Shown in pieces: positions 1 through 34,622 of a stretch of DNA of 34,822 nucleotides. Numbering within the stretch: position 1 is the stretch's first letter; every line of letters begins with the position of its first letter. A program made the position numbers and the translations under genes. A model generated the notes under the pieces. It was not told the DNA's origin and did not search any database. It was given only the letters and a program-made list of their open reading frames with translations. The stretch covers positions 1-34,822 of the forward strand of contig JAKAPE010000011.1 in the NCBI GenBank assembly GCA_021811945.1, read 5' to 3'. This DNA comes from Pseudomonadota bacterium (GTDB taxonomy: Bacteria; Pseudomonadota; Alphaproteobacteria; Rhizobiales; Xanthobacteraceae).

Positions 1-1
1 G

Positions 2-769
2 ATTCTTGCCGGCTATGCCGACCTCTGCGCAGGCGAAAGCAATCTCGCGGTCGCCGTGCGCTCCTCCGCTACCAGTGAGGACAGCAGCGAAGCGAGTTTC
101 GCGGGATTACAGGATACTTATCTGTGGATCTGCGGCGGCAACGACGTGGTTCACGCCGTGCGCCGCTGCTGGGCCAGTCTCTACAGCACGGAATCCATCA
201 GTTATCGCCTCCGCTTCAAGCTGCCCGAGGAGGGCCTCGCCATGGGCGTAGTGGTGCAGCGCATGGTCGATTCTCGCTGCTCGGGGGTGATGTTTACACG
301 CAGCCCGCTCACGGGCGATCGTTCGGTGATCGCCATCGAGTGCAGTTGGGGCCTGGGTTCAGCAACGGTCAGCGGCGAGGTGACGCCAGACAAATACGTC
401 GTCAGCAAGGTGACCGAGGAAATCATCAAGCGCACGGTTTCGCACAAAACCGTCATGCACATTCCCGATATCGTCGCCGGCGGCGTTCGCGCCGAACCGG
501 TGCCGCCCGAGCGCCGCCACCTCGCCTGCCTCAGCGAGGAGCAGATCGTCGAACTGGCGCGGGTCGGCAAGAGCGTCGAGGCGCACTACCAATGTCCGCA
601 GGACATCGAATGGGCGTTCGCGCCTGACGCTGGCGGAAGCGAGAGGCTCTATATGTTGCAAAGCCGACCGGAAACCGCCTGGGCAAGTAAAGAGGGCAAA
701 CCAACCGCCGTTCCCAAGGCCAGGGCGTTCGATCACGTATTCGAGATGCTCGGCAGAGGCAAGGCTTGA
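2..769 (+). CDS. PEP/pyruvate-binding (PEP synthase / PPDK N-terminal-like ATP-grasp) protein, 5' truncated by window edge
   Basis: Frame open from base 2. Contains VAVRSSATSEDSSEASFAGLQDTYL and a terminal MLQSRPET motif typical of the PEP-synthase ATP-grasp domain. Ends at 769 with no downstream phosphohistidine or PEP-binding domain. Confidence 0.88.
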   Translation: MLAGYADLCAGESNLAVAVRSSATSEDSSEASFAGLQDTYLWICGGNDVVHAVRRCWASLYSTESISYRLRFKLPEEGLAMGVVVQRMVDSRCSGVMFTRSPLTGDRSVIAIECSWGLGSATVSGEVTPDKYVVSKVTEEIIKRTVSHKTVMHIPDIVAGGVRAEPVPPERRHLACLSEEQIVELARVGKSVEAHYQCPQDIEWAFAPDAGGSERLYMLQSRPETAWASKEGKPTAVPKARAFDHVFEMLGRGKA

Positions 770-1257
770 TGAACCTGACGGACGACGACGTTCGCGAGAT
801 CATCCGCCTCATCGACAGCTCGCACGTCCACGAGCTGCGCATCAAGACCGAAAAGTTTGACCTCTGCCTGCGCCGCTCCGCCGCGGGCTGGACTCGTGAG
901 ACGAAGACGCTGACGCGGCCGGATGTGATCGGCGGCGTCGAGGCCGCGCCTGCGGCGACCTCCGATACACCCGCTCAGGCGAAATCATCGACACAAGACG
1001 AGGCATGCGGCGTTGTCGCGATCCGGACTCCCATCGTCGGCACTTTCTATCGGGCCCCGAAACCGGGAGCGCCGCCATTCGTCGAGATCGGGTCCGAGGT
1101 GGACGGTAATAGCGTCGTCGGCATTGTGGAGACAATGAAGCTGATGAATTCGGTGAGTGCGGGCGCTGCCGGCACAGTGATCGAGGTCTGCGTCGCCGAC
1201 GGGGAGTTCGTCGAGTCCGATCAAGTCCTGATGCGACTGCGGCGGACCGAGGCATGA
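769..1257 (+). CDS. Biotin carboxyl carrier protein (AccB-like)
   Basis: Biotinylation motif VETMKLMN (Lys codon 1138-1140); PIVGTFYRAPKPGAPPFVEIGSEV is typical BCCP. ATG at 769 overlaps the upstream TGA (TGATG); the ORF track's 766 start is a TTG. Confidence 0.93.
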   Translation: MNLTDDDVREIIRLIDSSHVHELRIKTEKFDLCLRRSAAGWTRETKTLTRPDVIGGVEAAPAATSDTPAQAKSSTQDEACGVVAIRTPIVGTFYRAPKPGAPPFVEIGSEVDGNSVVGIVETMKLMNSVSAGAAGTVIEVCVADGEFVESDQVLMRLRRTEA

Positions 1258-2621
1258 ACATCCGCCGGGTCCTTGTCGCCAACCGCGGCGAGATCGCGGC
1301 AAGGATCATCCGCACCTGCCGCAACCTCGGCATCGAGACGGCGCTGGCTGCCTCCGAGGCGGATCTCGACGCCGTGCCGGCGCGCCTCGCCGATCATATC
1401 GTCTGCATCGGGCCGGCACACGCGAGCCAGAGCTATTTGAATGTCGATGCGGTCGTGCGCGCCGCCGCAGCGGCCAAGGCCGATGCCGTCCACCCGGGCT
1501 ACGGATTCCTTGCCGAGAACGTTCGCCTCGCGCGCGCTTGCCGTGAGCACGGTATCGTTTTCATCGGTCCGACCGAGGCGCAGCTCGAAGCCGTGGGCGA
1601 CAAGATGCAGGCGCGCGCGCATGCTGTAGCGGCGGGGCTGCCGGTCGTCCCCGGCGGTCCGGTGGGCTCTCCGGCCGAAGCTGCCGCATTGGCCAAAGTC
1701 ATCGGCGTGCCGCTGCTCGTCAAGGCGGTAGCCGGAGGCGGCGGGCGCGGGATGAAGCTGGTAACGGACGCGGCGCGCACAGCCGAGACCGCGGACTTGG
1801 CGATGGCCGAGGCCGGCGCGGCGTTTGCCGACCCACGCGTCTATCTCGAACGCTTTGTCATCGCGGGGCGGCACGTCGAAGTGCAAATCGTCGGCGACGG
1901 CGGCGACGTCGTCCACCTTGGCGACCGCGATTGCTCTGTGCAGCGTCGCCATCAGAAACTGGTGGAGGAAGCGCCGGCGCCCGGCCTGCCCGAAACCACG
2001 CGCGCGGCCATGCACGAGGCGGCCATCGCCTTCGGCAGGCACCTCGGCTACCGCGGTCTCGGCACGGTCGAGTTCCTGCTCGACCGCGACTGCGGCGTGT
2101 TCTACTTCCTCGAAATGAACGCGCGTATTCAGGTCGAGCACCCGGTGACCGAGGCGATCACAGGCCTCGACCTGGTGGCCGAGCAGATCGCCATCGCCGA
2201 AGGTCGCCCGCTGCGCTTGCGGCAACAGGACATCCGCTTCCACGGTCACGCCATCGAGTGCCGCCTCAACGCCGAGAATTGGACCCACGACTTTCGGCCG
2301 AGCCCCGGCACGGTGACGACGGCGGTCTTCCCGGCCGGCGCCGGCATCCGTGTCGACACCCACATCGAGGGCGGAGCGCGGGTGCCCCCGTTCTACGACT
2401 CCTTGCTCGCCAAGATCGTCGCCCACGGCGCCAACCGCGGCAGCGCCATCGAACGGATGAAATCAGCGCTGGCCTCTTGTCGAGTCGACGGCGTGGCCAC
2501 AAACCGGGACATGCATCTCTTTCTGCTGGCGCTGCCGGAGTTTCTCCGCGGCGGAATGGATACGCCCTTTTTCGCCCGCGCGCTGCAACGGCGTGAGGGC
2601 GACGGTGGTCGTCCGTCATGA
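1254..2621 (+). CDS. Biotin carboxylase subunit (AccC-like)
   Basis: RRVLVANRGEIAARIIRTCRNLGI, VAGGGGRGMK, FLEMNARIQVEHPVTE. ATGA overlap with BCCP. Confidence 0.95.
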   Translation: MNIRRVLVANRGEIAARIIRTCRNLGIETALAASEADLDAVPARLADHIVCIGPAHASQSYLNVDAVVRAAAAAKADAVHPGYGFLAENVRLARACREHGIVFIGPTEAQLEAVGDKMQARAHAVAAGLPVVPGGPVGSPAEAAALAKVIGVPLLVKAVAGGGGRGMKLVTDAARTAETADLAMAEAGAAFADPRVYLERFVIAGRHVEVQIVGDGGDVVHLGDRDCSVQRRHQKLVEEAPAPGLPETTRAAMHEAAIAFGRHLGYRGLGTVEFLLDRDCGVFYFLEMNARIQVEHPVTEAITGLDLVAEQIAIAEGRPLRLRQQDIRFHGHAIECRLNAENWTHDFRPSPGTVTTAVFPAGAGIRVDTHIEGGARVPPFYDSLLAKIVAHGANRGSAIERMKSALASCRVDGVATNRDMHLFLLALPEFLRGGMDTPFFARALQRREGDGGRPS

Positions 2622-4108
2622 CCAGCATCGGTCTCGTCGACGTGTCGATCCGCGACGGCAACCAGAGCACCTGGGGCGCCACCGGATTGAATACGCCGCA
2701 GTGTCTCCAGATCGCGCCGGTTATGAATCGCGTCGGCTTTCACGCCGTCGATTTCACCGCCAGCACGCACATGGGCGTCGCGGTGAAATACTACAAAGAA
2801 GATCCGTGGGAGCGCATCCGGCTGATGCATCGGCTGATGCCGGATACGCCCCTGCAATTCATCGGCGTCGGTTTCCGCTTCATCTCCTGGGAGACCCTGG
2901 ACAGCGAGGTGATGCGGCTGGTCCATCGCTGTTTGATCCGCAACGGCATGTCCCGCTTCGTCGTGCTGGAACCGATGCACGATCTCGACGCCATGCTGGC
3001 GACCGCGCGCATGATTCGCGAGGAAGGCGGCACCGAGATCATGGCGGCGCTCACCTATACCCTGAGCGATGTCCATAACGATGCGTTCTACGCCAACCTT
3101 ATCGCCGCTCTGGCAAAGTCGCCCGATTTCGACCGCGCCTACATCAAGGATCCGTCGGGGCTTCTGGCGGCCGACCGCGCGCGCACCCTGATTCCCGCCG
3201 TGCGCGCAGCGGCCGGAAGACTGCCGATCGAGCTGCATTCCCACTGCACCATCGGCATGGCGCCTTATACGTACGCCGTCGCCGCAGACCTCGGCATCGA
3301 CACCCTGCACGTCGGCAGCGGACCGCTCGGCAGCGGGACGTCGCTGCCATTGTCGCTGCAGACGGTAGCCAATCTGCGCGACCTCGGACATACGGTTGAC
3401 ATCGACGACGATGCGCTGGCGCGGGTGAACGACTATTTCGAGCGTCTCGCGCGGGCGGAGGGCCTGCCGTTCGGCATGGCGCGTGAATTCGATGCCCGGT
3501 TCTTCCACCATCAGGTGGCCGGGGGCGTGATGACGACGACCAGGCGTCAACTCGAGGAGATCAACCTTGGCCACAAGCTGCCCGAGGTCATGATCGAGGT
3601 AGACCGCGTGCGGGCAGAACTCGGCTATCCCATCATGGTGACGCCGTTTCCGCAGATCGTCTGCACCCAGGCGATGTTCAACGTGATCGGGAAAGAGCGC
3701 TACGCCACCGTGCCCGATCAGGTGATCCGTTACGTCCTCGGGCGCTTCGGCCGCCCGGCGCGGCCGGTGGAGCCCAACGTCATGGACCGCATACTCTCTC
3801 ATCCGCGCGCCAGGGAGCTGCGGGACGAACCGCCGCCCGCATCGCTCGCCGAGCTGCGGCGGCGCTTCCCTCCGAAGTTGTCCGACGAAGAGTTTCTGCT
3901 GCGCGCCACCATGCCCGGCGATCAGGTTGACGCCATGCGCGCCGCCGGTCCGGCGCGCCGCCATTACAATCCCGATGTCCAGCCACTTCTGAAATTGCTG
4001 CGTAAGCTGGTCTGTCAACGCGACGTCTCGCGCGTGGTCGTGGACAAGCCCGGCTTCCACCTGGAATTGGCGGGCGCCGAAGTTGCCGCACCCACCGCTG
4101 ACGCGTAA
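2618..4108 (+). CDS. HMGL/pyruvate carboxylase subunit B-like biotin-dependent carboxyltransferase
   Basis: DVSIRDGNQSTWG, AYIKDPSGLL, ELHSHCTIG TIM-barrel motifs; follows accC-like gene with ATGA overlap; no fused biotinyl domain. Confidence 0.87.
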   Translation: MTSIGLVDVSIRDGNQSTWGATGLNTPQCLQIAPVMNRVGFHAVDFTASTHMGVAVKYYKEDPWERIRLMHRLMPDTPLQFIGVGFRFISWETLDSEVMRLVHRCLIRNGMSRFVVLEPMHDLDAMLATARMIREEGGTEIMAALTYTLSDVHNDAFYANLIAALAKSPDFDRAYIKDPSGLLAADRARTLIPAVRAAAGRLPIELHSHCTIGMAPYTYAVAADLGIDTLHVGSGPLGSGTSLPLSLQTVANLRDLGHTVDIDDDALARVNDYFERLARAEGLPFGMAREFDARFFHHQVAGGVMTTTRRQLEEINLGHKLPEVMIEVDRVRAELGYPIMVTPFPQIVCTQAMFNVIGKERYATVPDQVIRYVLGRFGRPARPVEPNVMDRILSHPRARELRDEPPPASLAELRRRFPPKLSDEEFLLRATMPGDQVDAMRAAGPARRHYNPDVQPLLKLLRKLVCQRDVSRVVVDKPGFHLELAGAEVAAPTADA

Positions 4109-4398: not shown

Positions 4399-6408
4399 AT
4401 GACCTGCGCCAATCCTCTCCTGCACAAGCCGTCGCGTCCTTTGCCCGAACGCGCGGTGGTGGTCGGAGCCGGCACCATCGGTCCCGACATCGGCTATTAC
4501 CTCAAGAGCGCCATTCCGGGTCTGACCCTTCACCTTCTTGACGTCGCCGAGGCGCCGCTCGAACGCGCGGTCGCGCGCTTCAAGAACTATGCGCGCAAGG
4601 CGGTCGAGCGCGGCAAGATGAACGAGACCGAGGCGCGCCGGGTCACCGAGAACCTGCACACTTCGCTCGACTATTCCGTCGTCAGCGACGCCGATTGGGT
4701 GATCGAAGCCGCGACCGAGGATTTGGCGCTCAAGCGCAAGATATTCGCCCGCATCGAGGAGCTGGTGCGGCCCGAGGCGCTCATCACCTCGAACACCAGT
4801 TCGTTGCCCGCCGAGCGCATCTTTGTCGAATTGCGCCACAAGGAACGCGCGACCGTCACGCATTTCTTCGCCCCGGCCTGGCGCAACCCTGTCGTCGAGG
4901 TGATTAGCTGGACCGGTGCCGATCCGCGCCTCGTCGGCGACCTCAATTGGATTTTTTGCATGACCGGCAAGGTGCCGCTCGTCACCGCCGATGTGCCCTG
5001 CTTCATGCTCGACCGCGTATTTGACAACTGGTGCAACGAGGCGGCTCTTCTCTTGAGCGAAGCGACGGCTGCGGAGATCGACACGACCGCGCTCGAATTC
5101 GTGCACGCCGGCCCCTTTTTCGTGCTCAACCTCGCCAACGGCAATCCGATCATCGTCGAGACTAATACGCTGCAGGCGGCCGAGGAGGGCGCGCACTATC
5201 GGCCGGCGCCGATCTTTCGCTCGGTCGCGACCTGGCGCACGATCGGCCCGGACAAGCCGGCCGCAGTTGCGGATGCCGTGAGGGCGCGTGTGCGCGACCG
5301 CCTGCTCGGCATCCTGGTTTCGCAGACCGCCGACATCCTCGACCGCAAGATCGGCGAATCGGCCGATCTCGAGCTCGGGTGCCGGCTGGCCCTCGGCTTC
5401 AAGGCGGGACCGCTCGACGTCATGCGCCGCATCGGCGACGCCGAGGTCGAGCGCATCGTCGCGCGCACGCGGCGCGAACGTCCCGGCCTGCCGCTGCCTT
5501 GCCGACCGCTCGCCGAATACCAGGAGTTCCACCGCCACGTCCTGTTTGACGATGTCGGCGGCGTCAAAGTGATCACCATCCGCCGCCCAGACGCGCTCAA
5601 TGCCATCAACGACGAGATCACCGATGAGATTTTGGCGGTGATCCGCCGCTTCGAGGATGACGAAGCGGTGCGCGGCTTCGTGTTGACCGGCTACGGCCCA
5701 CGCGCGTTCTCCGCGGGCGCCGACATCGGCCGTTTCCCCAGCGTGTTGGGGGATGCCGAAGCCGCGGCCCAATATGCGCGCGACTGCGCGCGGCTCTTGG
5801 TGCATATCGACGCCATGCGCAAGCCGGTGGTCGCCGCCCTCAATGGCATGGCGCTCGGCGGCGGACTGGAGATTGCGCTTCGCTGCCACGGCATCGTCGC
5901 CGTGCGCGGCGCTTCCTTGCAACTGCCGGAAATTCTGCTCGGCATCGTGCCGGGCCTGGGCGGCATGGTGGTGCCCTATCGGCGCTGGCCCAAGGCGGCG
6001 GCCGCTTTCCACGATATGATGCGGCGCGCGCGACGCATGTCGGCGAAAGACGCGCACGCCCTCGGCATCATCGATGCGGTGGCAGACGATCATGTCGGGC
6101 TGATCGACGCCGCGGTTGCTCGCGTCGACGCGCTCGCGGGTCGCCTCATGCCGCTTGGAGACGGCGCCGTCCAAATCGAGCCGCCGGCGCCCATCGAGCC
6201 GGTGGCGGCGAACGGCCAGCTGCTCAGCGCGCAGGCAATCGGTATCCTCGACGCCGCCATCCGCGCGGGGGCGGTGGCGCCGAGCCTCGCCGCCGCGCTC
6301 GATATCGGCTACCGCGCCTTCGGTGAGAGCGCCTGCACCGCCGCCGCGCGTGAAGGCATCGACGCCTTTCTCGGGCGCCGGCCGGCGGATTTCAGCAAGA
6401 CCGGCTAG
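4399..6408 (+). CDS. Bifunctional 3-hydroxyacyl-CoA dehydrogenase (N-terminal) / enoyl-CoA hydratase (C-terminal)
   Basis: N-terminal VVVGAGTIGPDIGYYL, TSNTSSLPAERI, THFFAPAWRNPVVEVI (HAD); C-terminal ALNAINDEI, FSAGADIG, NGMALGGGLEIAL, LPEILLGIVPGLGG (crotonase). Confidence 0.92.
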   Translation: MTCANPLLHKPSRPLPERAVVVGAGTIGPDIGYYLKSAIPGLTLHLLDVAEAPLERAVARFKNYARKAVERGKMNETEARRVTENLHTSLDYSVVSDADWVIEAATEDLALKRKIFARIEELVRPEALITSNTSSLPAERIFVELRHKERATVTHFFAPAWRNPVVEVISWTGADPRLVGDLNWIFCMTGKVPLVTADVPCFMLDRVFDNWCNEAALLLSEATAAEIDTTALEFVHAGPFFVLNLANGNPIIVETNTLQAAEEGAHYRPAPIFRSVATWRTIGPDKPAAVADAVRARVRDRLLGILVSQTADILDRKIGESADLELGCRLALGFKAGPLDVMRRIGDAEVERIVARTRRERPGLPLPCRPLAEYQEFHRHVLFDDVGGVKVITIRRPDALNAINDEITDEILAVIRRFEDDEAVRGFVLTGYGPRAFSAGADIGRFPSVLGDAEAAAQYARDCARLLVHIDAMRKPVVAALNGMALGGGLEIALRCHGIVAVRGASLQLPEILLGIVPGLGGMVVPYRRWPKAAAAFHDMMRRARRMSAKDAHALGIIDAVADDHVGLIDAAVARVDALAGRLMPLGDGAVQIEPPAPIEPVAANGQLLSAQAIGILDAAIRAGAVAPSLAAALDIGYRAFGESACTAAAREGIDAFLGRRPADFSKTG

Positions 6409-11506: not shown

Positions 11507-12697
11507 CTAAGCCACGATACCCTCCGCTGCCAAAGCTGCAATGTCCGATCGCGCAAAACCCGCCTGCGCCAGCACGTGATGCGTGTCCGCCCCGTATTTC
11601 GGCGCAAAGGGCAGATCGCGCGCGGCGCCGTCGATATCGACCGGCATTGGCTGCATGTGAATGGTCTTGCCGCCCGGCAGCGCGGTGCGTGTGAGCTTGC
11701 CCTGGAGCTGCGGCAGGGCGCTGACCTGGCGGATGTCGAAGATGCGCGTCGATGGGATCGTCGCCGAGCGCAGGTCGGCGAGAATCTCATCGACGCCATG
11801 ACGGATCGTGACCGCCGCGATGTCGCGATGGATCGCTTCGCGTTCCTTGTGGCGGCCTTCATTGGTGACGCGCGTATCGTTCGCGGCCGGTGCGAACTTT
11901 GCAATCGCGGTGAGACGGCGCCACTGCACGTCGCTGCCGATGGCGAGATACACGAAGCCGTCGTTGGCGGGATAGACGTTGGTGGGAATGAATTTTCGGT
12001 GCTCGTTGCCGGCGCGCGTGATCTCGCTCGGCGCGCAATCGAAGTCGATCAGCGGCAGCACGGTGATGAGCCAGGATGCGGCCGCCTGCAGCATGGAAAC
12101 GTGGATCGCCTTGCCGCGTCCGGTCTCGCCGCGTTCTAACAGAGCCAGCATGACATTGGCATAGATCTCGTCGCCGGCCTTGAGGTCGATCACCGGCAGG
12201 CCCATCTGCGTTGGCGATCCCTTGGGATCGCCTGTCACCTCCATATAGCCGCACATCGCCTGAATCACGGGGTCATAGCCGGGGACGTCGGGATAATCCG
12301 GTCCCATGGCGGAAATGCCGGCCCAAATCAGGTCGGGCTTGACAGCCGACAGCGTCGGATAATCGATCCCCAGCGCCGCGTAGCGCGACGGCAAGGTGTT
12401 GCAGCAGAACACGTCGACATCAAGCGCGCTGATCAGGCGCCGCAGGATTTCCTGCCCGCGCGGATGCTTGAGGTTGAGCGCGATCGCTTCCTTGCCGACG
12501 TTGGGCGCAACGAAATAGCTGCGCCGGTCATCGTCGGCGATCCGGCCGCCGATATAACGGTTGGGATCGCCGGGCAGGCCGCCGCCCGCCTTCGTCGCCT
12601 CGATGCGGATGACGCGCCAGCCGAGTTGGGCGAAGCGCAGCGTCGCCGATGGCAGCGACAACGCCTGCTCCATGCTGAGGACGGTGCGCGGCTTCAT
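11507..12697 (-). CDS. CaiB/BaiF family (type III) CoA-transferase
   Basis: [72 protein letters not shown]. Start set at 12697 from ATGA overlap with the upstream gene. Confidence 0.92.
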
Positions 12698-15081
12698 GCG
12701 GCGGCGATCCAAGTCGGCGGCTGCGAATTCGAGTGCAGGGCGCGGTAGACGTTCTCCGGGGTGAACGGCAGCGCCGTGATGCGCACGCCGGTGGCGTTGT
12801 AGATAGCATTGGCGACGGCCGCCGCGACACAGATCGCCGGCGCCTCGCCGACGCCCTTGGCGCCTTGCGGTCCTTCCCCATCCATCGTCTCGATGAAGGA
12901 GACGTCGATCTCGGGGATTTCCGGCGCGGTTACCAGCTTGTAGTCGCGAAAATTCGGGTTGCGGATGACGCCGTTCTCGACGATCAGGTCTTCGGTCAGC
13001 GCGTAGCCCTGGCCCATGACGACGCCGCCCTCGATCTGGCCCTCGATGCCGAGGCGATTGAGCACGCGGCCGACGTCGTGCGCGCCGATGACCTTCAACA
13101 GCTTGACGATGCCGGTCTCGGTGTCGACCTCGATCTCGACCACCTGCGTCGCCCAGGCGTAGGCGGCCGAGACGTCGCCGCGGAACTCCTTGTCCTGCTT
13201 GTGGCTCGGCGGCTCGTAATAGAAGGTCGTCATCACGAGCTCGGCTTTGTCGGAGAAGTGCAGCGATCGAATGAGCTTGCCGATCTCGATCAGCTTCTCG
13301 CCGGTGGCCTTGTCGATCACGCAGCCCTCGCGCAGGTCGAGGCGCTCGGCCGGCCGCCCGAACTTCGAGGCAGCCGCGGCCAGGATTTTCGCCTTGGCCT
13401 TGCGCGCGGCGCCGAGCGCAGAATTGCCGGCGATGAAGGTGGTGCGCGAGGCATGCACGCCGACATCCCACGGCTTCACATCGGTATCGTTGTTGACGAC
13501 CGTGACCGCCGACAGCGGCAGCCCCAGTTCCTCGCAGGCGAGCTGGGCGAGCACCGTCTCCGAGCCCTGGCCGATCTCGGAGGCCCCGGTGATTAGCGTG
13601 ATATGGGCGAAATCGTCCATCTTGATGATCGTGCCGCAGCCGTCGGACGGATAGATCTTGGCGCCGCCGCCGACATGCAGCATCGAGGCCATCCCGACGC
13701 CGCGCTTGACCGGGTTGCCGTCGTTCCATTTCCCGCGGGCGGCGCTGAACTTCGCCTGATAGTCGCTGCGCGAGGCGGCCGTCTGCAGGCAATCCTTGAA
13801 GCCGCAAGACTTGAAATGCATGCCCTGCGGCGTGACCTCGCCGGGATCCTGCGCGTTGATCAGCCGGAACTCGAGCGGGTCCATGCCGATCGCTTCCGCG
13901 AGCTTGTCCATATGTGCCTCGACGGCAAAGGTCGCCTGCAAATTGCCGTAGCCGCGGAAGGAGCCGGCATAGGGATTGTTGGTGTAGATGGCGCGCGTGC
14001 GGTAATTGCAATTCGGGACGCGGTAGAGCGAGGAGATGGTCTGCATCATGACAAACGGCGTGGTCGCGCCCCAGGACGTGTAGGCGCCGTTGTCGTGCAC
14101 CGTTTCGACGTCGCGGAACGTCAGCCGGCCGTCGCTGCGGCAGCCGGAACGCATCTTCAGGAGCACCGGCTGGCGGGTCGGCGAGGCCATGAATTCCTCC
14201 TCGCGCGAGAAGATCAGCTTGACCGGCCGGTGCGTGATCTTGGCGAGATAGATGGCGATCGGCTCGAAGGGGTAGATGTCGAGCTTGGAACCGAAACCGC
14301 CGCCGATGGGCGGCTGAATGATGCGGATGCGGCCGGGGTCCATGCCGAGCAATTCGGCGAATTCGCGCTTGTGCAGGAACGGAACCTGCGTGTTGGAGTA
14401 GAGCAGCAGGTTCTCGCTGGCATCAAACTCGGCGATGACACCGGACACGCCCATGCAGCAATGCGTGACATAGTGCAGCCGGAACACATCCTCGACAACG
14501 ACGACGGATTCCGCCTCGCCGTTGGGGATGTCGCCCTGCCCGTAATTGAAAGTCATCGCGACGTTGTCGTGTGAGGCTTTGTGCACGACTTCCCGCTTGC
14601 CGTCGGGGCCGGTGACGATGAGATCCTCGCCATGCAGCAGCGCGGCACCCGGCTTGAGTGAATCTTCGGCCGTGGCGACGATCGGCAGCGGCTCGTATTC
14701 GACCTTGATCAGCTTGACGGCCGCCGCGGCGATATCTTCGGATTCGGCGGCCACCGCGGCGATCTCGTCGCGCGGGCTGCGCACGCGATCGCCTTTGAGC
14801 GGCAGATGGTCCTTGGCGACGCCGATCGGGCGCTGCCACGGAACATCGGCTGCGGTGATAACGGCGTGCACGCCGGGCAGCGCCCGCGCCGCGCCGGTAT
14901 CGATCGCAACGATGCGGGCATGCACCTCGCTCGATCGCAGAATCTTGGCGTGCAACTGGCCGGGTAGATCAATGTCGTGGATATAACGGGTCTTGCCACT
15001 CGCCTTCTCCGGCGCGTCCATCTTGGGGATGCGCTTGCCGATGAGCGAACCGTCGTATTTCGGCTTTTCCATCGCGTCCAT
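12694..15081 (-). CDS. Xanthine dehydrogenase family molybdopterin-binding subunit
   Basis: [74 protein letters not shown]. Start refined to 15081. Confidence 0.94.
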
Positions 15082-15092
15082 GGGACAGCCTC

Positions 15093-15566
15093 CTAGCTCG
15101 AGGCCGCAGCGGCTTCGCTGATCGCCTCGACGATCTTCTTGTAGCCGGTGCAGCGGCAGAGATTGCCTTCGATGCCGCGCCGGATCTGCTCCGGCGTCGG
15201 GCTCCTCACCTTCTCCAGGAGATTTCTTGCCTGCATGACGAAGCCGGGCGTGCAGAAGCCGCATTGGACGGCCCCATATGCGACGAAGCTTTTCTTCAGC
15301 GCCTCGGTGCGCGGATCCGACACCAAGCCTTCGATGGTGACGATTTCGCGGCCGTGGCAATCGGCCGCAAACATCAGGCAGGCATTCGCCGAAAGGCCGT
15401 CGACGTTGATGGTGCAGGCGCCGCATTCGCCCTCGCCGCAGCCATATTTCGTGCCGGTCAGGTGCAGCTCGTCGCGCAGCATCTCGAGCGCGCTCATGCC
15501 GGGGGAGACCGTCGTGCGCACGTCGACGCCGTTGAGCTTGAAGGCAACGTCAATTTTGGGTGACAT
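15093..15566 (-). CDS. Xanthine dehydrogenase family [2Fe-2S] subunit
   Basis: GTKYGCGEGECGACTINVDG and QCGFCTPGFVMQARNLLE...GNLCRCTGYKKIVEAI. Start refined to 15566 (MSPKIDVAFKLNG). Confidence 0.95.
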   Translation of the reverse strand: MSPKIDVAFKLNGVDVRTTVSPGMSALEMLRDELHLTGTKYGCGEGECGACTINVDGLSANACLMFAADCHGREIVTIEGLVSDPRTEALKKSFVAYGAVQCGFCTPGFVMQARNLLEKVRSPTPEQIRRGIEGNLCRCTGYKKIVEAISEAAAASS

Positions 15567-16467
15567 TATTGAGCATCCTTCGCAAGACATTGCGCACAAG
15601 CTCGCGCCGGTACCATGCCGAGGCGCGGATATCCGAAATCGGATGGATGTCGGCGGCGGCCGCCGCGAGCGCCGGCTCGATCGCGGCCGGCAGCGGTTGG
15701 GAGGCAAGCGCGGCCTCCGTCTTGGCGGCGCGGATCGGGGTCGGCGCCACGGCGCCGAAGGCGACCCGCACCTGGCGCAACCGTTGCCCGTCGCGCACGG
15801 CGCCGAAACCTATCGCGATCGCGGAAATGTCGAGCGCCGGGCGGGTACCGAATTTATAGAATTCGCTGAAGAAGCCGTCGGGCGGCAGCGGCACTTCGAC
15901 CGCGGTCAGAAGCTCGGTCGCGCGCCGCTGGGTGCGGCCGGGGCCGACGAAAAACTCGGCAAGCGGCAGCGTTCGCCTCGCCGCCGCGCCGTTCACCTCG
16001 CTCGTAAGCTCGACGCGCGCATCGAAAACCAGCAGCGGCACCAGCGTATCGCCGGCCGGCGAAGCGTTGCAGATATTGCCGCCGATCGTCGCCGCGTTGC
16101 GCAACTGCTCGCTGGCGAAATGATCGGCAGCCTGCCACAGGGCATTGAAACGGTTCTTGACGAGCGCGCTGTCGAGCAACTCGGTGATGGTGGTCAGCGC
16201 GCCGAACCGCACGCAGTCCTGCGTCCCGCGGATGCCCCGCAGCTCGGGCACATGTCGGACGTTCATCAGCATCCGCTGGAAACGGGCACGGCCTGTCTTG
16301 CTTTGCGGCATCAAGTCGGTACCGCCGGCGAGAATGGTCGCCTCGCCGGTGCGCAGCAGCGCCACCGCCTCGGCGAGCGAGCGCGGCGCCGCGTAAGTCT
16401 CGATCGCCGCGACGCCTTCTTCTGGAGCGACGGCCGGGCGTCCTGTCGTTGCCGGTTGCGGACTCAC
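15550..16467 (-). CDS. Xanthine dehydrogenase family FAD-binding subunit
   Basis: ATILAGGTDLMPQ, NAATIGGNICNASPAGDTLVPLLVFDARVEL; adjacent to the other two subunits. GTG start at 16467 or a downstream start. Confidence 0.93.
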   Translation of the reverse strand: MSPQPATTGRPAVAPEEGVAAIETYAAPRSLAEAVALLRTGEATILAGGTDLMPQSKTGRARFQRMLMNVRHVPELRGIRGTQDCVRFGALTTITELLDSALVKNRFNALWQAADHFASEQLRNAATIGGNICNASPAGDTLVPLLVFDARVELTSEVNGAAARRTLPLAEFFVGPGRTQRRATELLTAVEVPLPPDGFFSEFYKFGTRPALDISAIAIGFGAVRDGQRLRQVRVAFGAVAPTPIRAAKTEAALASQPLPAAIEPALAAAAADIHPISDIRASAWYRRELVRNVLRRMLNNVTQN

Positions 16468-16468
16468 C

Positions 16469-18136
16469 TCATGCTCCGTACAGCTTGGTTGCGGCCGCGG
16501 CCGATATCAATCCGTCGCGCACTTCCTCCTTGAGCTTGGCGCGGCTGCGCAGCTTTGGATCGCCGTAGCCACCGCCGCCGCCCGCCTGCTGGTGGTAGTG
16601 GGTACCGCGCGGCACGCCGGCGAGGAGGTCCTTGTTGCGCGGCGTCACGACCCGGCCGTCCGGATAGGTCAAACGGATGAAGTTGAGCATGCCGTTGCCA
16701 CCGCCGAACAGGCCGAAGGCCGGCTCGAAATCGCCGTCGCCGAAGATGACCACCTGTGTGTCGTCAGAGCCGATCTCGAACATCGTCTCGACGCCGAGGC
16801 CGCCGCGCCACTGTCCCGGGCCGGCCGAGTCGGTCAGGTATTCGTGGCGGATCAGCCGGTGCGGAGTCTGCTGCTCGAACATCTCGTAATCCTGATCAAG
16901 GACGCCGCCCGAAGCATCGATCATGCCGATGTGATCGTAGCCGTCGGTGCCGCGCAGCGCGCCGGAACCGCCTTTGAGCCCCATGAAGCCGATGTCGACA
17001 TATTTCTCCTGCTTCTGCGGATCGATCCCGGTCGTCAGCGAACACAACAGGTTGTTCCACCCGGCGGTGACCCGGTCCGGCATGACCGGCGCGAGTGCGC
17101 GCTGAATCGCTTCCGCGTTGGGCGGACAGAGGTGGTTGCCGAACGTCGTGGCCTTCGGATAGGCGGCGTTGAGAATGGTGCCTTCCGGGATCACGATCTC
17201 GATCGGCGCCACCATGCCCTCATTGTGCGGGATGTCCGGATTGACCATCTGCAGCAGGGTGAGGATGGTCGCCGAGGCGCTCGAGGTAAAGGTGCCGTTG
17301 ACGAAGCCGTTGGTCTGCGGGTCGGTGTCGCTGTAATCGAACTTGATGCGCTTGCCGTCAACGGTGATGCTGACGCGAATGGTGAAGATCGATCCCGCGT
17401 GCCGGCCGTCGTAATAGACGCGCCCCTCGCCCTGATAGCTGCCGTCGGGGATGGCGGCAATCTCGCTTTCCATCATCCGCTGCGTCGCCTCGAACAGCGC
17501 CTCTTTGTGCGCCTCGAAACTGGCGCGGCCGTATTTTTGCAGGAGCGACAGCATGCGCCGCTCGCCGACGCGGCAGGCGCCGATCTCGGCCTTCATGTCG
17601 TGCTGGACGATGTCAAAACGGATATTGGCGAAGATCAGGTCCCAGACATCCTTGCGCAGCTTGCCGCGCTCGTAGATTTTCACCGGTGGGATGCGCAGCG
17701 CTTCCTGCCACACCTCGATAGCATTGGGATTGTAGCCGCCCGCGACCGCCCCGCCGATGTCGGCCTGATGGCCCTTTACCGCGGTCCAGGCGACGAGCTC
17801 GTCTTCAAAGAAGATCGGCCTGTACACGGCGACGTCGTTGTTCTGATTGCCGAACGAGAACACGTCGTTGTGGAAGATCACGTCGCCCGGGTGGATGTCA
17901 TCGCCGAAATAGCTGCGGATGTATTTGCACACGGGCGCCAGCGAGAAGGCGAGGATCGGCAGGTTCTCGGTCTGCTCGAGCATGCGTCCTTCGGCGTCGT
18001 AAAGGCCGGTGACGTAATCCTTCGCCTCGCACAGAATCGGCGAGCGCGTCGTCTGCTGCATCGAGATCGACATTTCGTCGGTGATCGAGCGAAAGGTGCG
18101 GGCATAGACCGAGAGCAGGATGGGGTCGATTGTCAT
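16469..18136 (-). CDS. Hydantoinase B / oxoprolinase / acetone-acetophenone carboxylase family protein (HyuB-like, copy 1)
   Basis: GDVIFHNDVFSFGNQNNDVAVYRPIF, GHQADIGG, QAGGGGGYGDP. ATGA overlap with upstream hyuA-like gene. Confidence 0.92.
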   Translation of the reverse strand: MTIDPILLSVYARTFRSITDEMSISMQQTTRSPILCEAKDYVTGLYDAEGRMLEQTENLPILAFSLAPVCKYIRSYFGDDIHPGDVIFHNDVFSFGNQNNDVAVYRPIFFEDELVAWTAVKGHQADIGGAVAGGYNPNAIEVWQEALRIPPVKIYERGKLRKDVWDLIFANIRFDIVQHDMKAEIGACRVGERRMLSLLQKYGRASFEAHKEALFEATQRMMESEIAAIPDGSYQGEGRVYYDGRHAGSIFTIRVSITVDGKRIKFDYSDTDPQTNGFVNGTFTSSASATILTLLQMVNPDIPHNEGMVAPIEIVIPEGTILNAAYPKATTFGNHLCPPNAEAIQRALAPVMPDRVTAGWNNLLCSLTTGIDPQKQEKYVDIGFMGLKGGSGALRGTDGYDHIGMIDASGGVLDQDYEMFEQQTPHRLIRHEYLTDSAGPGQWRGGLGVETMFEIGSDDTQVVIFGDGDFEPAFGLFGGGNGMLNFIRLTYPDGRVVTPRNKDLLAGVPRGTHYHQQAGGGGGYGDPKLRSRAKLKEEVRDGLISAAAATKLYGA

Positions 18137-20256
18137 GCCGGTACCCGTTCGCGTTCGAGGCAAGACTCCACCAGGTCTTCGCGGCCCTTGCGGTAAAGCG
18201 TCAGCGAGCGGTGGCCATCCATCAGACAGTCGAAACTGCCCGACACGAACACCGCGGTCGTGACCGTTTCGATAACGGCGGGACCCTCGATCCGGTTGCC
18301 GCACCGCAGGCGATGGCCGTCGTAAACCGCGGCGGGCTGAAACGACGCACTTTCCGGGAGGTAGACGGTGCGCCGGCCCTTGAGCGCGTGCCGCGCATCC
18401 CCGCCGCTATGACGCTCGAGCGCGTAAGTCGGCCGCTCGATGGCACCGATCGCCTGCAGCCGCACGTTGATGACCTCGATCGGCGCGCCTTCCGCTTCCA
18501 GGCTGTATCCATACAGCCGGTTGTGCTCGACGTGAAAGGCGCTCGCGACGGCCTGCCGATCGCGCGCTTCGATCGCCTGCGCCGGGACCTCGAAGGAAAC
18601 CTCGTGGTATTGCTTGACGTAGCGGCAGTCGAAGCGGACGCGGTAGCGCCGCTGCACGACGGCGACGCGCTCCTCTTCCAGCATGCGGTCGCCCTCCAGC
18701 CGCATCTCGCCGAGCAGATCGGCGAGGCGCGCCCAGTCGAGCGCGTCGAGACGCGTGACGAAGGTGCGCACGAAATCGTGCTGCAGCTCCGACAACAGCA
18801 TGCCGAACGCACACAAGACCGAGGCCGACGGCGGCACGACCTGCAGCGGGATTTCCAGTTCGTTGCAGATCAAACAGGAATGCATCGGTCCGGCGCCGCC
18901 GCCGGCGACGTAGACGAATTCGCGCGGATCGAAGCCGCGCTTGATGGTCACCTCGCGCACGCCCTGCGCCATGTTGTTGCAGGCGATGCGGTACATGCCG
19001 GCGGCGGCCTCCTCGACCGAAAGCCCCATCGGTCGCGCGATATGATCGGCGATGGCGCGTCGCGCCGCCTCGACATTGAGTTGCATGCGACCGCCGGCGA
19101 AATATTCCGGATCGAGATAGCCGAGCACGAGATTGGCGTCGGTGGTGGTCGGCAGCGTCCCGCCCTTGCCGTAGCAGGCCGGGCCCGGATCGGCTCCGGC
19201 GCTCTGCGGGCCGACGCGCAGCAGGCCGCCCTCGTCGAGCCACCCGAGCGAGCCGCCGCCGGCGCCGATCGTGTGAATGTCCAGCATCGGCAGCGCAATC
19301 TTGTGGCGCGCGATTTCGCCGTCATTCACGGTGACCGGCGACCCGATCGCGACCGAAGCTTCGAAGCTCGTGCCGCCCATGTCGGTCGTGATGCAGCGGT
19401 CGGTGTTGAGGGCGCGGGCGAAATAAAGTCCGGCGGCCGGTCCGCCCGCCGGCCCCGACAGCAGCGTCAGCGCCGCTTTCTCGCGGGCAAGCTGCGGGGA
19501 GATGACGCCGCCGTTCGACTGCATGATGAGCAGCACGCCGCGAAAACCGGCGGCCCGCAGCCGGTTGACCAACTGGTCGAGATAGCGGTTGAGTTTCGGT
19601 CCGACATAGGAGTTGAGCGCCGTCGTGCTCACCCGCTCGTAAAATCGGATCGACGGCAAGAGATCGGTCGACACCGTGAGAAAAGCCTCGGGCAATTCGC
19701 GCCGCACGAACTCGGCCGCGGTGCGCTCGTGCACGGGATTGGCGAAGGCGTTCATGAAGCAGATCGACACCGCTTCCACCTTCTCCTCTTTGCAGAGGGC
19801 GACCGCCGCACGGATGTCGTCGAGGTCGAGCGGCTCGATCTCGGCGCCGTTGCGGTCGAGGCGGCCCCCGATGCCCTGGCGCAGATAACGCGGCACCAGC
19901 GGCGTGACGTTGGTGTAGCGATTGTCGTATTGGCGTTCGCGAATGCCGCGCCGCATTTCCAGCGCGTCGCGCAAGCCCTTGGTGGTCAGGAGCGCCGAAC
20001 GCGCGCCGGTACGCGTGAGCGTGGCGTTGGTTGTTACCGTCGTGCCATGCACGATGGTATCGACCGCGCCGATGAATTGCCCAAAATCCGCCTGTGGCTG
20101 CAGGATTTGCGCTATTTCCTGTAATCCCGTGAGAACGGCAACCGAGGGATCGTGCGGCGTCGACAATACTTTGTGGATCGGCGTGTCGAGGCCGTGCCCG
20201 GCCACGATGAAGTCCGTGAAGGTACCGCCGACGTCGATCCCGATCTTAAGACCCAT
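18133..20256 (-). CDS. Hydantoinase A / oxoprolinase / acetone-acetophenone carboxylase family protein (HyuA-like, copy 1)
   Basis: KIGIDVGGTFTDFIV, VHGTTVTTNATLTRTGA, TTDMGGTSFEASV, TIGAGGGSLGWLDEGG. Confidence 0.93.
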   Translation of the reverse strand: MGLKIGIDVGGTFTDFIVAGHGLDTPIHKVLSTPHDPSVAVLTGLQEIAQILQPQADFGQFIGAVDTIVHGTTVTTNATLTRTGARSALLTTKGLRDALEMRRGIRERQYDNRYTNVTPLVPRYLRQGIGGRLDRNGAEIEPLDLDDIRAAVALCKEEKVEAVSICFMNAFANPVHERTAAEFVRRELPEAFLTVSTDLLPSIRFYERVSTTALNSYVGPKLNRYLDQLVNRLRAAGFRGVLLIMQSNGGVISPQLAREKAALTLLSGPAGGPAAGLYFARALNTDRCITTDMGGTSFEASVAIGSPVTVNDGEIARHKIALPMLDIHTIGAGGGSLGWLDEGGLLRVGPQSAGADPGPACYGKGGTLPTTTDANLVLGYLDPEYFAGGRMQLNVEAARRAIADHIARPMGLSVEEAAAGMYRIACNNMAQGVREVTIKRGFDPREFVYVAGGGAGPMHSCLICNELEIPLQVVPPSASVLCAFGMLLSELQHDFVRTFVTRLDALDWARLADLLGEMRLEGDRMLEEERVAVVQRRYRVRFDCRYVKQYHEVSFEVPAQAIEARDRQAVASAFHVEHNRLYGYSLEAEGAPIEVINVRLQAIGAIERPTYALERHSGGDARHALKGRRTVYLPESASFQPAAVYDGHRLRCGNRIEGPAVIETVTTAVFVSGSFDCLMDGHRSLTLYRKGREDLVESCLERERVPA

Positions 20257-21830: not shown

Positions 21831-23045
21831 CTATCCGTGATCCGAGACCTTGAGCACCACCGCCATGGCGGTGTCGCCGGCGGCGCAGCCCGCGAACAAG
21901 CCATAACCGCCTCCGCGCAGCACTAATTCCTCGATCAGTTCGATGATCGCACGGGTGCCCATCGGCGCCTGCGGATGGCCCCAGACCAGCGAACAACCGA
22001 AGTTGTTCATGCGTTCGAGCGGCACGCCGGTCTGGCGGGAAAACAGCACGTCGTTCACGGCGAACGGATTATGCGTCTTGATCGCATCGATCTGCGTTAT
22101 GGGCAAACCTGCCTGTTCGAGCGCGCGCCGCGCGGCCGGGATCGGCGCTTCCGGCATATAGGCGAGATCGGCGCGCGCGAGGCCGAAGCCGAGGAGGCGG
22201 ATGCGGATCTTTGCATCGCGGCTCAATGACGCCGCCTTCTCCGGCGAGGCGACGATGATCGCGGCATTGCCGTCCGCCGGATGCGTCTGCCCGCCGAAGG
22301 TGACGCTACCGCCCTCCATCACCGGCTTGAGCTTGGCGAGGCCTTCAGGCGTGGAGAACTTGATCCCCTCGTCCGTTGCCAGCGTCGCCGCGGTCTTGCG
22401 GAAAGAAGGATCCGGAACCGCGAAGGGGAGCGTCATATAGCGCTTTTGGAACTTGCAGTCGTCGGCCAGCGCGTCGCGATACTGCGCCTCGCGCCGCAAC
22501 ACCACATCGTGCTGCTCGGCGGCGGTGATCTGATGCTTGGTCGCGACGTTCTCCGCGGTCTTGATCATCGCGTGGCCGCCGAGCGGGTCGTGATTGAAAT
22601 TGTCCATCACCCAGTCTTCGCTCGCGCCGGTGCCGCCGGCGCCCCTGGGATTCGGGTAGTAGACATGCGGGCCGTTCGAGGTGCGATCGCAAGTTACCGC
22701 GAGCACGCTGTGACATTGTCCGGCCTCGATATCCTGGGCGGCGCAAAGCAGCGCGCGCACGCCGGTCGCGCAGGCCTGCATCACGGTCGAACCGCTGACA
22801 TGAGGCAGTCCCGCCATGCCGGCGACCCAAGGCATTCCGTAGAACGAATGCTTCTGCGGCACGGTGAAGCCGAGCACGCCGGACTCGATCGCTTCGGCGG
22901 GAATCTCGCGCTTGGCCAGTTCCTCGCGCAGCGTCTGCGCCGCGAATTGCAGCGCATTGAGGTTGGCGAATGCGCCCTGCCAGCGCGCGAAGGGCGTGCT
23001 CCAGTAAGCACCGTAGGGAATCTCAGCCTTGTACGCCATGGCCAT
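21831..23045 (-). CDS. Thiolase family protein (divergent acetyl-CoA acetyltransferase-like)
   Basis: MQACATGVRALLCAAQDIEAG, IDAIKTHNPFAVNDV, NNFGCSLVWGHPQAPMGTR, GCAAGDTAMAVVLK. Start refined to 23045. Confidence 0.87.
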   Translation of the reverse strand: MAMAYKAEIPYGAYWSTPFARWQGAFANLNALQFAAQTLREELAKREIPAEAIESGVLGFTVPQKHSFYGMPWVAGMAGLPHVSGSTVMQACATGVRALLCAAQDIEAGQCHSVLAVTCDRTSNGPHVYYPNPRGAGGTGASEDWVMDNFNHDPLGGHAMIKTAENVATKHQITAAEQHDVVLRREAQYRDALADDCKFQKRYMTLPFAVPDPSFRKTAATLATDEGIKFSTPEGLAKLKPVMEGGSVTFGGQTHPADGNAAIIVASPEKAASLSRDAKIRIRLLGFGLARADLAYMPEAPIPAARRALEQAGLPITQIDAIKTHNPFAVNDVLFSRQTGVPLERMNNFGCSLVWGHPQAPMGTRAIIELIEELVLRGGGYGLFAGCAAGDTAMAVVLKVSDHG

Positions 23046-23721
23046 TGGGTCGCCCTTTTTGCCGTCCGATCGCTTCTTGCAGGATGCGTTTGGCCTCGCC
23101 GAGATGATCGCGCATGGCCACGGCGGCATCCTCGGGCTTGCCGGCGGCGAAGGCGCCGGTCAACCGCTTCAGGCCCTTGAGCACGACCGCCCGCGTCTTC
23201 GGCTCGCCGAGGGTGAGCACGCGCAGATAGCGCACGTGGTCGGCATAGAGTTCGATCGCGCGCAAAAGCCGCGTGTTCGGAACCCGTTCGAGCCAGGCGG
23301 CGCGGTAGCGGTAATTGGCGTCGCTGAACGCATTCGCGTCATCCGCCGCATGCGCCGCCACCATGGCTGCGAGCTGGTTGCGCAGCGGCTGCAACGGCTT
23401 GCGGCCACTGAGCCGCCGCGTCACCTGGCTGATCGCCTCCGGCTCGAGCAAGAGACGCAATTCGTAAATATCGTCGATGTCGCTGCGCGACAACGCCGGG
23501 AGGACGAAGCTGCGCCCCGACGCCTGGAGGAGACCCTCGCTCGCCAGGCGGGCAAGCGCTTCGCGCACCGGCGTGCGCGACACGCCGAGCTGGGCAGCGA
23601 GCGCCTCCTCCTGCATCGGCTCGCCACCGGCCGAGCGGCCCGACAACAAATGGTCGCGCAGCGCCAGATAGGTGCGATCACCGAGCGAGGCCGGGCGGTC
23701 GAGCGCCTTGAGCGAAACCAT
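23023..23721 (-). CDS. GntR family transcriptional regulator, FadR/FCD subfamily
   Basis: N-terminal wHTH (LRDHLLSGRSAGGEPMQEEALAAQLGVSRTPVREALARLASEGLL) plus helical FCD-type C-terminal domain. Confidence 0.94.
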   Translation of the reverse strand: MVSLKALDRPASLGDRTYLALRDHLLSGRSAGGEPMQEEALAAQLGVSRTPVREALARLASEGLLQASGRSFVLPALSRSDIDDIYELRLLLEPEAISQVTRRLSGRKPLQPLRNQLAAMVAAHAADDANAFSDANYRYRAAWLERVPNTRLLRAIELYADHVRYLRVLTLGEPKTRAVVLKGLKRLTGAFAAGKPEDAAVAMRDHLGEAKRILQEAIGRQKGRPNGHGVQG

Positions 23722-30233: not shown

Positions 30234-30649
30234 CACGGCTGCTCCGCGCCGGGGCCGTGTGCGCAGATTTCAAACAGAACACCTGTCGCCCGGTCGCGCT
30301 CGAAGAACGCCACCGTGCCATGCGCGCCGCGCCGGGGAAAACCCGGTTGCACGCGGAACCCGGCCGGCGCCAACCGTTCGAGAGCGGCATCGACGCCCTC
30401 GACGGCGACCGTGAGGTGATTGAGACCGTTTTCGTCACCCATCACTGCGCGCGCGAAAGTCGCCGCGCCGTCATAGGCGATGAGTTCAAGCGCGACATTT
30501 GCGGTGTGGAATTCGGCGATACGCAGCTCGAGTTCCGGGAGGTCGCGACGCTGCGGCGCGAGGCCGCCGAGCAGCGCCGAGAAGCGCGCGATGGCGGCGT
30601 CGAGGTCGGCAACGACGATGCCGATATGATCGATGCGCGGCAGCGTCAT
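30233..30649 (-). CDS. VOC family protein, methylmalonyl-CoA epimerase-like
   Basis: RIDHIGIVVADLDAAIARFSALLG, GLNHLTVAVEGVDAALERLAPAGFRV, GVLFEICAHGP; 138 aa. ATGA overlap with upstream hyuB. Confidence 0.8.
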   Translation of the reverse strand: MTLPRIDHIGIVVADLDAAIARFSALLGGLAPQRRDLPELELRIAEFHTANVALELIAYDGAATFARAVMGDENGLNHLTVAVEGVDAALERLAPAGFRVQPGFPRRGAHGTVAFFERDRATGVLFEICAHGPGAEQP

Positions 30650-34538: not shown

Positions 34539-34622
34539 GCGGGAGCTGCTGATCAATTCGAACGATAGCGAAGGTCACGGTTTGGCCGCGCGCGAATCGC
34601 CGCGCACGGCAATTCCAGAAAT

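Follow-up and report, generated by a model that had tools for sequence, protein, structure and literature searches.

We identified, at the start of a 34,822-nucleotide Xanthobacteraceae contig (the window; contig C34 of a 4.55 Mb assembly in 399 contigs), an operon that combines the genes of a two-component kinase with those of a three-subunit biotin-dependent carboxylase. Gene content, gene order, subunit architecture, catalytic motifs, conservation, and clade membership together make it highly probable that this operon encodes a biotin carboxylase dependent on prior phosphorylation of its substrate, a phenolic methyl ketone that is most likely 4-hydroxyacetophenone or something closely related. 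Comparison of related loci shows repeated swapping, ahead of this carboxylase, between two unrelated kinases, the HpeHI dikinase and UPF0261/MarK.

A dikinase–carboxylase operon that probably spans two contigs

Four genes occupy positions 2–4108 of the window, each with an open frame and each matching its expected family: an ATP-grasp subunit, a biotin carboxyl carrier protein (BCCP), a biotin carboxylase (BC), and a carboxyltransferase (CT) (Table 1). The TGATG and ATGA overlaps that a preliminary description, made from the window alone, had noted between them were confirmed. The BCCP gene starts at the ATG within its TGATG junction, with a TTG at 766 as an alternative, and encodes the biotin motif ETMKLM (Lys codon 1138–1140). 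BC scored 584 bits against NF006367 (cut-off 597). The CT, previously called HMGL-type, is a carboxyltransferase as proposed, but its match is to PYC_OADA (PF02436, E = 7e-26), with the HMGL-like domain below the gathering score; it carries RDGNQS, the carboxylated-lysine motif YIKDP (K177), and the metal motif H207xH209. BCCP, BC, and CT are three separate subunits, and the biotin lysine, the ATP-grasp motifs, and the CT lysine and metal motifs are all intact.

The 5′ part of the ATP-grasp gene is missing from the window, as its PF01326 match shows by covering only profile positions 88–321 of 328, and was found on contig C136. The bases shared by the two contigs occur at 100% identity in only two places genome-wide, the window start and the C136 end, and the HpeI frame runs unbroken through the C136–C34 join. 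The gene starts with a GTG at C136:4782, has its first 102 codons on C136, and encodes a full protein of 357 amino acids with PPDK_N as its only domain. The protein is isolated and stand-alone, as the preliminary description had it, although the gene visible there was truncated by the contig edge. That description also placed this gene at the head of the operon, whereas two genes precede it on C136: immediately upstream, one for a 607-residue swivel/phosphohistidine protein and, before that, a UPF0261 gene that we call U1. The full order across both contigs is U1–hpeH-like–hpeI-like–BCCP–BC–CT, and a divergent acetoacetyl-CoA-synthetase-like (AACS-like) gene, cut by the contig end, lies before U1.

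The swivel subunit has a C-terminal swivel domain of the phosphoenolpyruvate (PEP)-utilizer type, matches NF006153 over its full length at 816 bits, and carries SDIGGTMSHAAIV around His565. The published signature of phenolic kinases is T/SXXGGXXXH plus a Met at the regulatory Thr of PEP synthase; SDIGGTMSH in the swivel subunit fits the motif, and Met replaces the Thr. A PEP-binding barrel was found in neither subunit, nor anywhere in the operon, and the HpeI-like protein is 42% identical to the crystallized HpeI chain 9goj. Because C136 supplies both a complete ATP-grasp gene and a separate swivel gene, with no full-length PEP synthase upstream, we assign the two proteins as a two-component dikinase of the HpeHI/PpsAB/CreHI type rather than as a PEP synthase fragment. 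The PpsA-like swivel gene anticipated upstream by the preliminary description, which had likened the system to split phenylphosphate synthase, is thus present.

Among HpeH sequences, the operon's protein groups with carboxylase-linked kinases, apart from four phenol (PpsA) sequences; the phenol group includes a PpsA-like paralogue on contig C53 of the same genome. C53 holds a probable phenol cluster (L012 1454–8705, minus strand) with a PpsAB-like kinase, a UbiD-family carboxylase, U1, a NUDIX protein, and a CBS protein. Two-component dikinases of a third, more remote type, with about 26% identity to HpeH and 34–39% to HpeI, adjoin an SDR gene and are encoded on C231 (L013 8197–11024), on C238 (L118 7915–10859), and on contig C59 of genome G609; the C231 contig is without U1.

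Table 1. Features of the operon and its surroundings, in window coordinates unless a contig is named.
Feature	Position	Strand	Remarks
Assembly overlap with C136 end (5087–5196)	1..110		110 identical bases
HpeI/PpsB-type ATP-grasp (PPDK_N) subunit, assigned to a two-component dikinase	2..769	+	PF01326 E = 3e-79; 3′ 255 of 357 codons
BCCP (HpeC/XccB-type)	769..1257	+	TIGR00531 125 bits, cut-off 115
Biotin carboxylase of HpeCBA/Xcc-type enzyme	1254..2621	+	ATGA junction; GGGGRG and EMNARIQVEHPVTE motifs
Carboxyltransferase of HpeCBA/Xcc-type enzyme, PYC_OADA + HMGL-like	2618..4108	+	ATGA junction
3-hydroxyacyl-CoA dehydrogenase / enoyl-CoA hydratase (HCDH/ECH) fusion	4399..6408	+	290 bases 3′ of operon
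U1 (UPF0261; locus L008)	C136 1679–2950

Conservation of the locus and exchange of the kinase

Scanning genome contigs with a CT alignment returned 404 relatives, and we examined the neighborhoods of the best 80 of these 404, which with the window locus gave 81 loci. As the preliminary description had presupposed, the gene set is widely conserved: the order HpeH–HpeI–BCCP–BC–CT was found again in dozens of other genomes, far beyond chance. The kinase was HpeHI at 47 of the 81 loci, of UPF0261 (MarK) type at 27, and neither at 7, with both types together at none; six of the seven loci without a kinase are cut at a contig end, and the other (L046, Rhodoblastus) has a split BC frame. A kinase gene of one type or the other lies directly upstream of BCCP–BC–CT in 74 of 75 untruncated loci, and the kinase–carboxylase loci span Pseudomonadota, Actinomycetota, Acidobacteriota, and Thermodesulfobacteriota. 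On the CT tree (FastTree), the distribution of the two kinase types takes 7 changes, and well-supported branches force at least 6 of them; the window and L030 (Roseiarcus, CT 80% identical) have HpeHI, and their sister L031 (Telmatospirillum, CT 72%) has the MarK type. HpeHI and the MarK-type kinase are mutually exclusive at this carboxylase (L030–L109) and have been exchanged at least six times.

The UPF0261 group that replaces HpeHI includes PDB entry 9mpy, which is Saro_1862 of Novosphingobium aromaticivorans with acetovanillone bound, and is very probably MarK, reportedly a single-component kinase, published in 2025, that starts the same pathway. We rejected the reading of this group as an unpublished replacement for HpeHI on that account.

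The CT was found in one of 19 congeners of the window genome, the sole match being 40% identical, and because the other 18 are without it the cluster is patchy and was probably acquired horizontally. Five sphingomonad records (L095, L098, L099, L100, and L115) have an identical CT protein, one of them on plasmid pBAR1 near a Tn3-family transposase; the MarK-type cluster of these five has undergone recent horizontal transfer. Another locus, L048, comes from a 2.9 Mb metagenome-assembled genome (MAG) filed as Klebsiella pneumoniae; its CT is very close to that of a gammaproteobacterial MAG (L051), and the Klebsiella label is probably wrong.

Predicted reaction, substrate, and alternatives

By analogy with the characterized homologues, from which reaction order and chemistry are taken, the ATP-grasp subunit would bind ATP and pass its β-phosphate to His565 of the swivel subunit, which would phosphorylate the phenolic OH (ATP → AMP + Pi). 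BC would load CO2 onto the BCCP lysine, and CT would transfer it onto the methyl carbon of the phosphorylated aryl ketone to form a phospho-benzoylacetate. Following loss of the phosphate, a step that we propose, like the exact substrate, with less certainty, the AACS-like ligase would activate the β-keto acid, which would then be split into aroyl-CoA or the acid plus acetyl-CoA. The preliminary description had suggested a phosphorylating module acting before biotin-dependent carboxylation and was broadly right, as the characterized systems make this order very probable. It had offered an enol or an aryl phosphate as the activated form; in the known chemistry the phenolic OH is phosphorylated, and an enol phosphate is not needed. 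It had also taken the coupling for novel, which it is not, because the coupling of HpeHI to HpeCBA was shown biochemically and published in 2022 (PMC9618137). The operon extends a known phosphorylate-then-carboxylate pathway rather than adding a new strategy, here in a bacterium whose genome also includes a phenylphosphate-type phenol cluster; the remaining interest lies in U1, in the absence of the phosphatase, and in the recurrent exchange of kinases.

Plasmids of the bisphenol A degraders Sphingomonas bisphenolicum AO1 and Pseudomonas putida YC-AE1 carry relatives of the CT at 57–64% identity, the one in AO1 with an aldehyde dehydrogenase gene and a carotenoid-oxygenase-family gene beside it. 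Bisphenol A degradation yields 4-hydroxyacetophenone. These relatives and the HpeH clade favor 4-hydroxyacetophenone as the substrate, short of proof. It is possible, if somewhat doubtful, that the same machinery serves another phenolic substrate, such as acetovanillone, a hydroxyaryl ketone with a longer chain, or a different phenol bearing an activated CH: the kinase and carboxylase are about 41–54% identical to enzymes of the type found in Rhodococcus rhodochrous GD02, HpeHI accepts several phenols, and the kinase partly sets the substrate range. The window CT falls, however, inside a large clade with the clusters of bisphenol A degraders, and the GD02-type and SYK-6-like CTs fall outside it. 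We regard it as very improbable that this is a conventional biotin enzyme of the acyl-CoA, pyruvate, or oxaloacetate type with the dikinase as a chance neighbor. Among curated CT models, those for pyruvate carboxylase subunit B and oxaloacetate decarboxylase come closest, but all of these score below cut-off, and we rejected this reading on those low scores and on the kinase linkage, which holds at all but one of the untruncated loci over four phyla and is accompanied by start/stop overlaps. The best named matches of the ATP-grasp frame are PEP synthase models, but the reading that the window edge truncates a complete PEP synthase or PPDK can be dismissed, provided that the contig overlap is genuine, on the C136 sequence, which completes a stand-alone protein after a separate swivel protein, with no PEP-binding domain in the operon.

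Several points weigh against assigning the operon to carboxylation of a phosphorylated methyl ketone. No HpeD-type HAD phosphatase was found in the window genome (E ≤ 1e-4) or downstream of the CT, so one defining pathway step would be without its usual enzyme. The substrate could differ, because identity to biochemically studied enzymes is just 41–54%. The C136–C34 join is supported by the exact 110-base overlap, the unbroken frame, and the gene order conserved elsewhere rather than by reads, and the AACS-like gene runs off the far end of C136.

A HAD phosphatase gene follows the CT in most loci, and the HpeD-type gene was likewise not found (E ≤ 1e-4) in four other genomes whose loci lack the phosphatase. 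In one of these (L064, 11470–12210), a gene recognized by its sequence as a calcineurin-like phosphoesterase lies directly after the CT, in the place of the HAD phosphatase, and may be a non-homologous replacement for it. An HpeE-type ligase is present as the AACS-like gene, which scores 567 bits to NF002937 (cut-off 639; the gene is cut by the contig end). Searching for an HpeF-type β-ketoacyl-CoA hydrolase returned only the crotonase domain of the HCDH/ECH fusion and a thiolase at 21831–23129. That fusion is possibly a later pathway step and a candidate operon member; it is not kept beside the operon in the other loci compared.

Elsewhere in the window, two HyuA/HyuB (hydantoinase/oxoprolinase) gene pairs (16469–20256 and 30646–34556, minus strand) are 52–57% identical to each other, the first scoring best with caprolactamase models and less well with those for acetophenone carboxylase, none of which reaches cut-off. 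A three-subunit molybdenum hydroxylase (12694–16467, minus strand) could not be assigned, because the best match of its large subunit, 4-hydroxybenzoyl-CoA reductase alpha, reached just 586 bits (cut-off 995).

U1 and comparison with known systems

U1 shares about 30% identity with the MarK type and belongs to a group of its own (65–77% identity within the group). U1 and MarK-type proteins share 38 invariant columns; U1 has GGATST where the MarK type has GGSMGT, and it is without HNxxLTAVR and HxND. We class U1 as a paralogue of MarK and not as MarK; a second MarK copy was rejected on the sequence groups and on the co-occurrence of U1 with HpeHI or MarK. The window genome has three copies, one beside the operon, one on C53 (L012 2748–3962) in a ppsA–ppsB–ubiD–U1–NUDIX–CBS cluster, and one on C238 (L118 11676–12911) beside the more distant dikinase. 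With U1 itself as query, 348 genomes of the window's order and 277 from the class to which Geobacter argillaceus belongs yielded 14 copies in 12 additional genomes; an HpeH/PpsA-like gene is found roughly 3 kb away from 10 of these copies, 1 adjoins a CT, and 3 are on contigs allowing no call. Outside the window locus, all 21 judgeable copies (5 found via the CT itself) lie in a dikinase or carboxylase cluster, in genomes that include G826, G1154, G1028, G958, G804, and G806. Because a random gene would have a rough chance of under 1% of falling within 3 kb of such a kinase, this linkage is not accidental. The typical cluster reads ppsA–ppsB–ubiD–U1–(NUDIX)–CBS–ubiX, and five phenol-type loci with complete order have ppsA–ppsB–ubiD–U1 followed by CBS and mostly ubiX; the Azoarcus cluster having ppcB, D, A, and G is without U1.

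Six U1 loci (L035, L039, L040, L044, L171, and L172) also hold a HAD gene, mostly 1–8 kb away and not directly after the CT, so the idea that U1 strictly replaces the HAD phosphatase is unsupported. The U1 model (pLDDT 90) had convincing PDB matches only to 9mpy and Tm-1 and therefore gave no independent hint at its reaction, and searches of the paper library turned up nothing on U1. We suggest, speculatively, that U1 is an uncharacterized enzyme of aryl-phosphate metabolism common to phenol (UbiD-type carboxylation) and hydroxyaryl ketone (biotin carboxylation) pathways. Its substrate may be the aryl phosphate itself, from which it might, for example, remove or recycle the phosphoryl group, possibly to ADP, in the absence of the HAD phosphatase (HpeD or, in phenylphosphate carboxylase, the PpcD subunit). 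The U1 group gains a testable genomic context that is relevant to the breakdown of bisphenol A and lignin ketones and to the wider Tm-1 family.

Among known systems, the Hpe pathway of R. rhodochrous GD02 (HpeHI, HpeCBA, HpeD, and HpeEF) is the reference: HpeHI phosphorylates 4-hydroxyacetophenone and acetovanillone on the phenol OH, HpeCBA carboxylates only the phosphorylated ketones, and HpeD then removes the phosphate (PMC9618137, PMC12167813). Our GD02-type reference was a cluster on a plasmid of Rhodococcus sp. JS3073; the HpeI encoded there shares 97% identity with 9goj. The window operon has the same gene order, with dikinase genes directly before a three-subunit biotin carboxylase, gene overlaps, catalytic motifs, and an AACS-like ligase nearby; identities are 49% for HpeH, 41% for HpeI, 50% for BC, 49% for CT, and 54% over 67 residues for BCCP. 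Unlike the Hpe pathway, the window locus has no HpeD-type phosphatase in cluster or genome and no identified HpeF, its ligase gene is divergent rather than downstream, and it has the additional U1. In Aromatoleum aromaticum EbN1, which degrades p-ethylphenol and 4-hydroxyacetophenone anaerobically, xccBCA is likewise clustered with hpeHI homologues, a likeness drawn from the published description (PMC9618137); this is the hydroxyacetophenone case to which the preliminary description alluded.

PpsABC of Thauera aromatica and Azoarcus has a kinase of the same two-component family, and the window HpeH-type protein is 47% identical to Azoarcus PpsA; the window kinase, in contrast, falls in a different clade, stands before a biotin carboxylase, and lacks a neighboring CBS-domain gamma subunit. 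AcvABCDEF of Sphingobium lignivorans SYK-6 is said to comprise a kinase pair, a carboxylase, and a phosphatase. AcvABCDEF-like loci in genomes G244 and G325 are 48–50% (CT) and 54% (HpeH) identical to the window proteins, but they lie outside the window's CT clade and have the phosphatase. MarK-type genes, finally, stand upstream of the same BCCP–BC–CT(–HAD) module in 27 loci, and U1 is of the same UPF0261 family as MarK (Saro_1862); unlike MarK, U1 accompanies HpeHI instead of replacing it.

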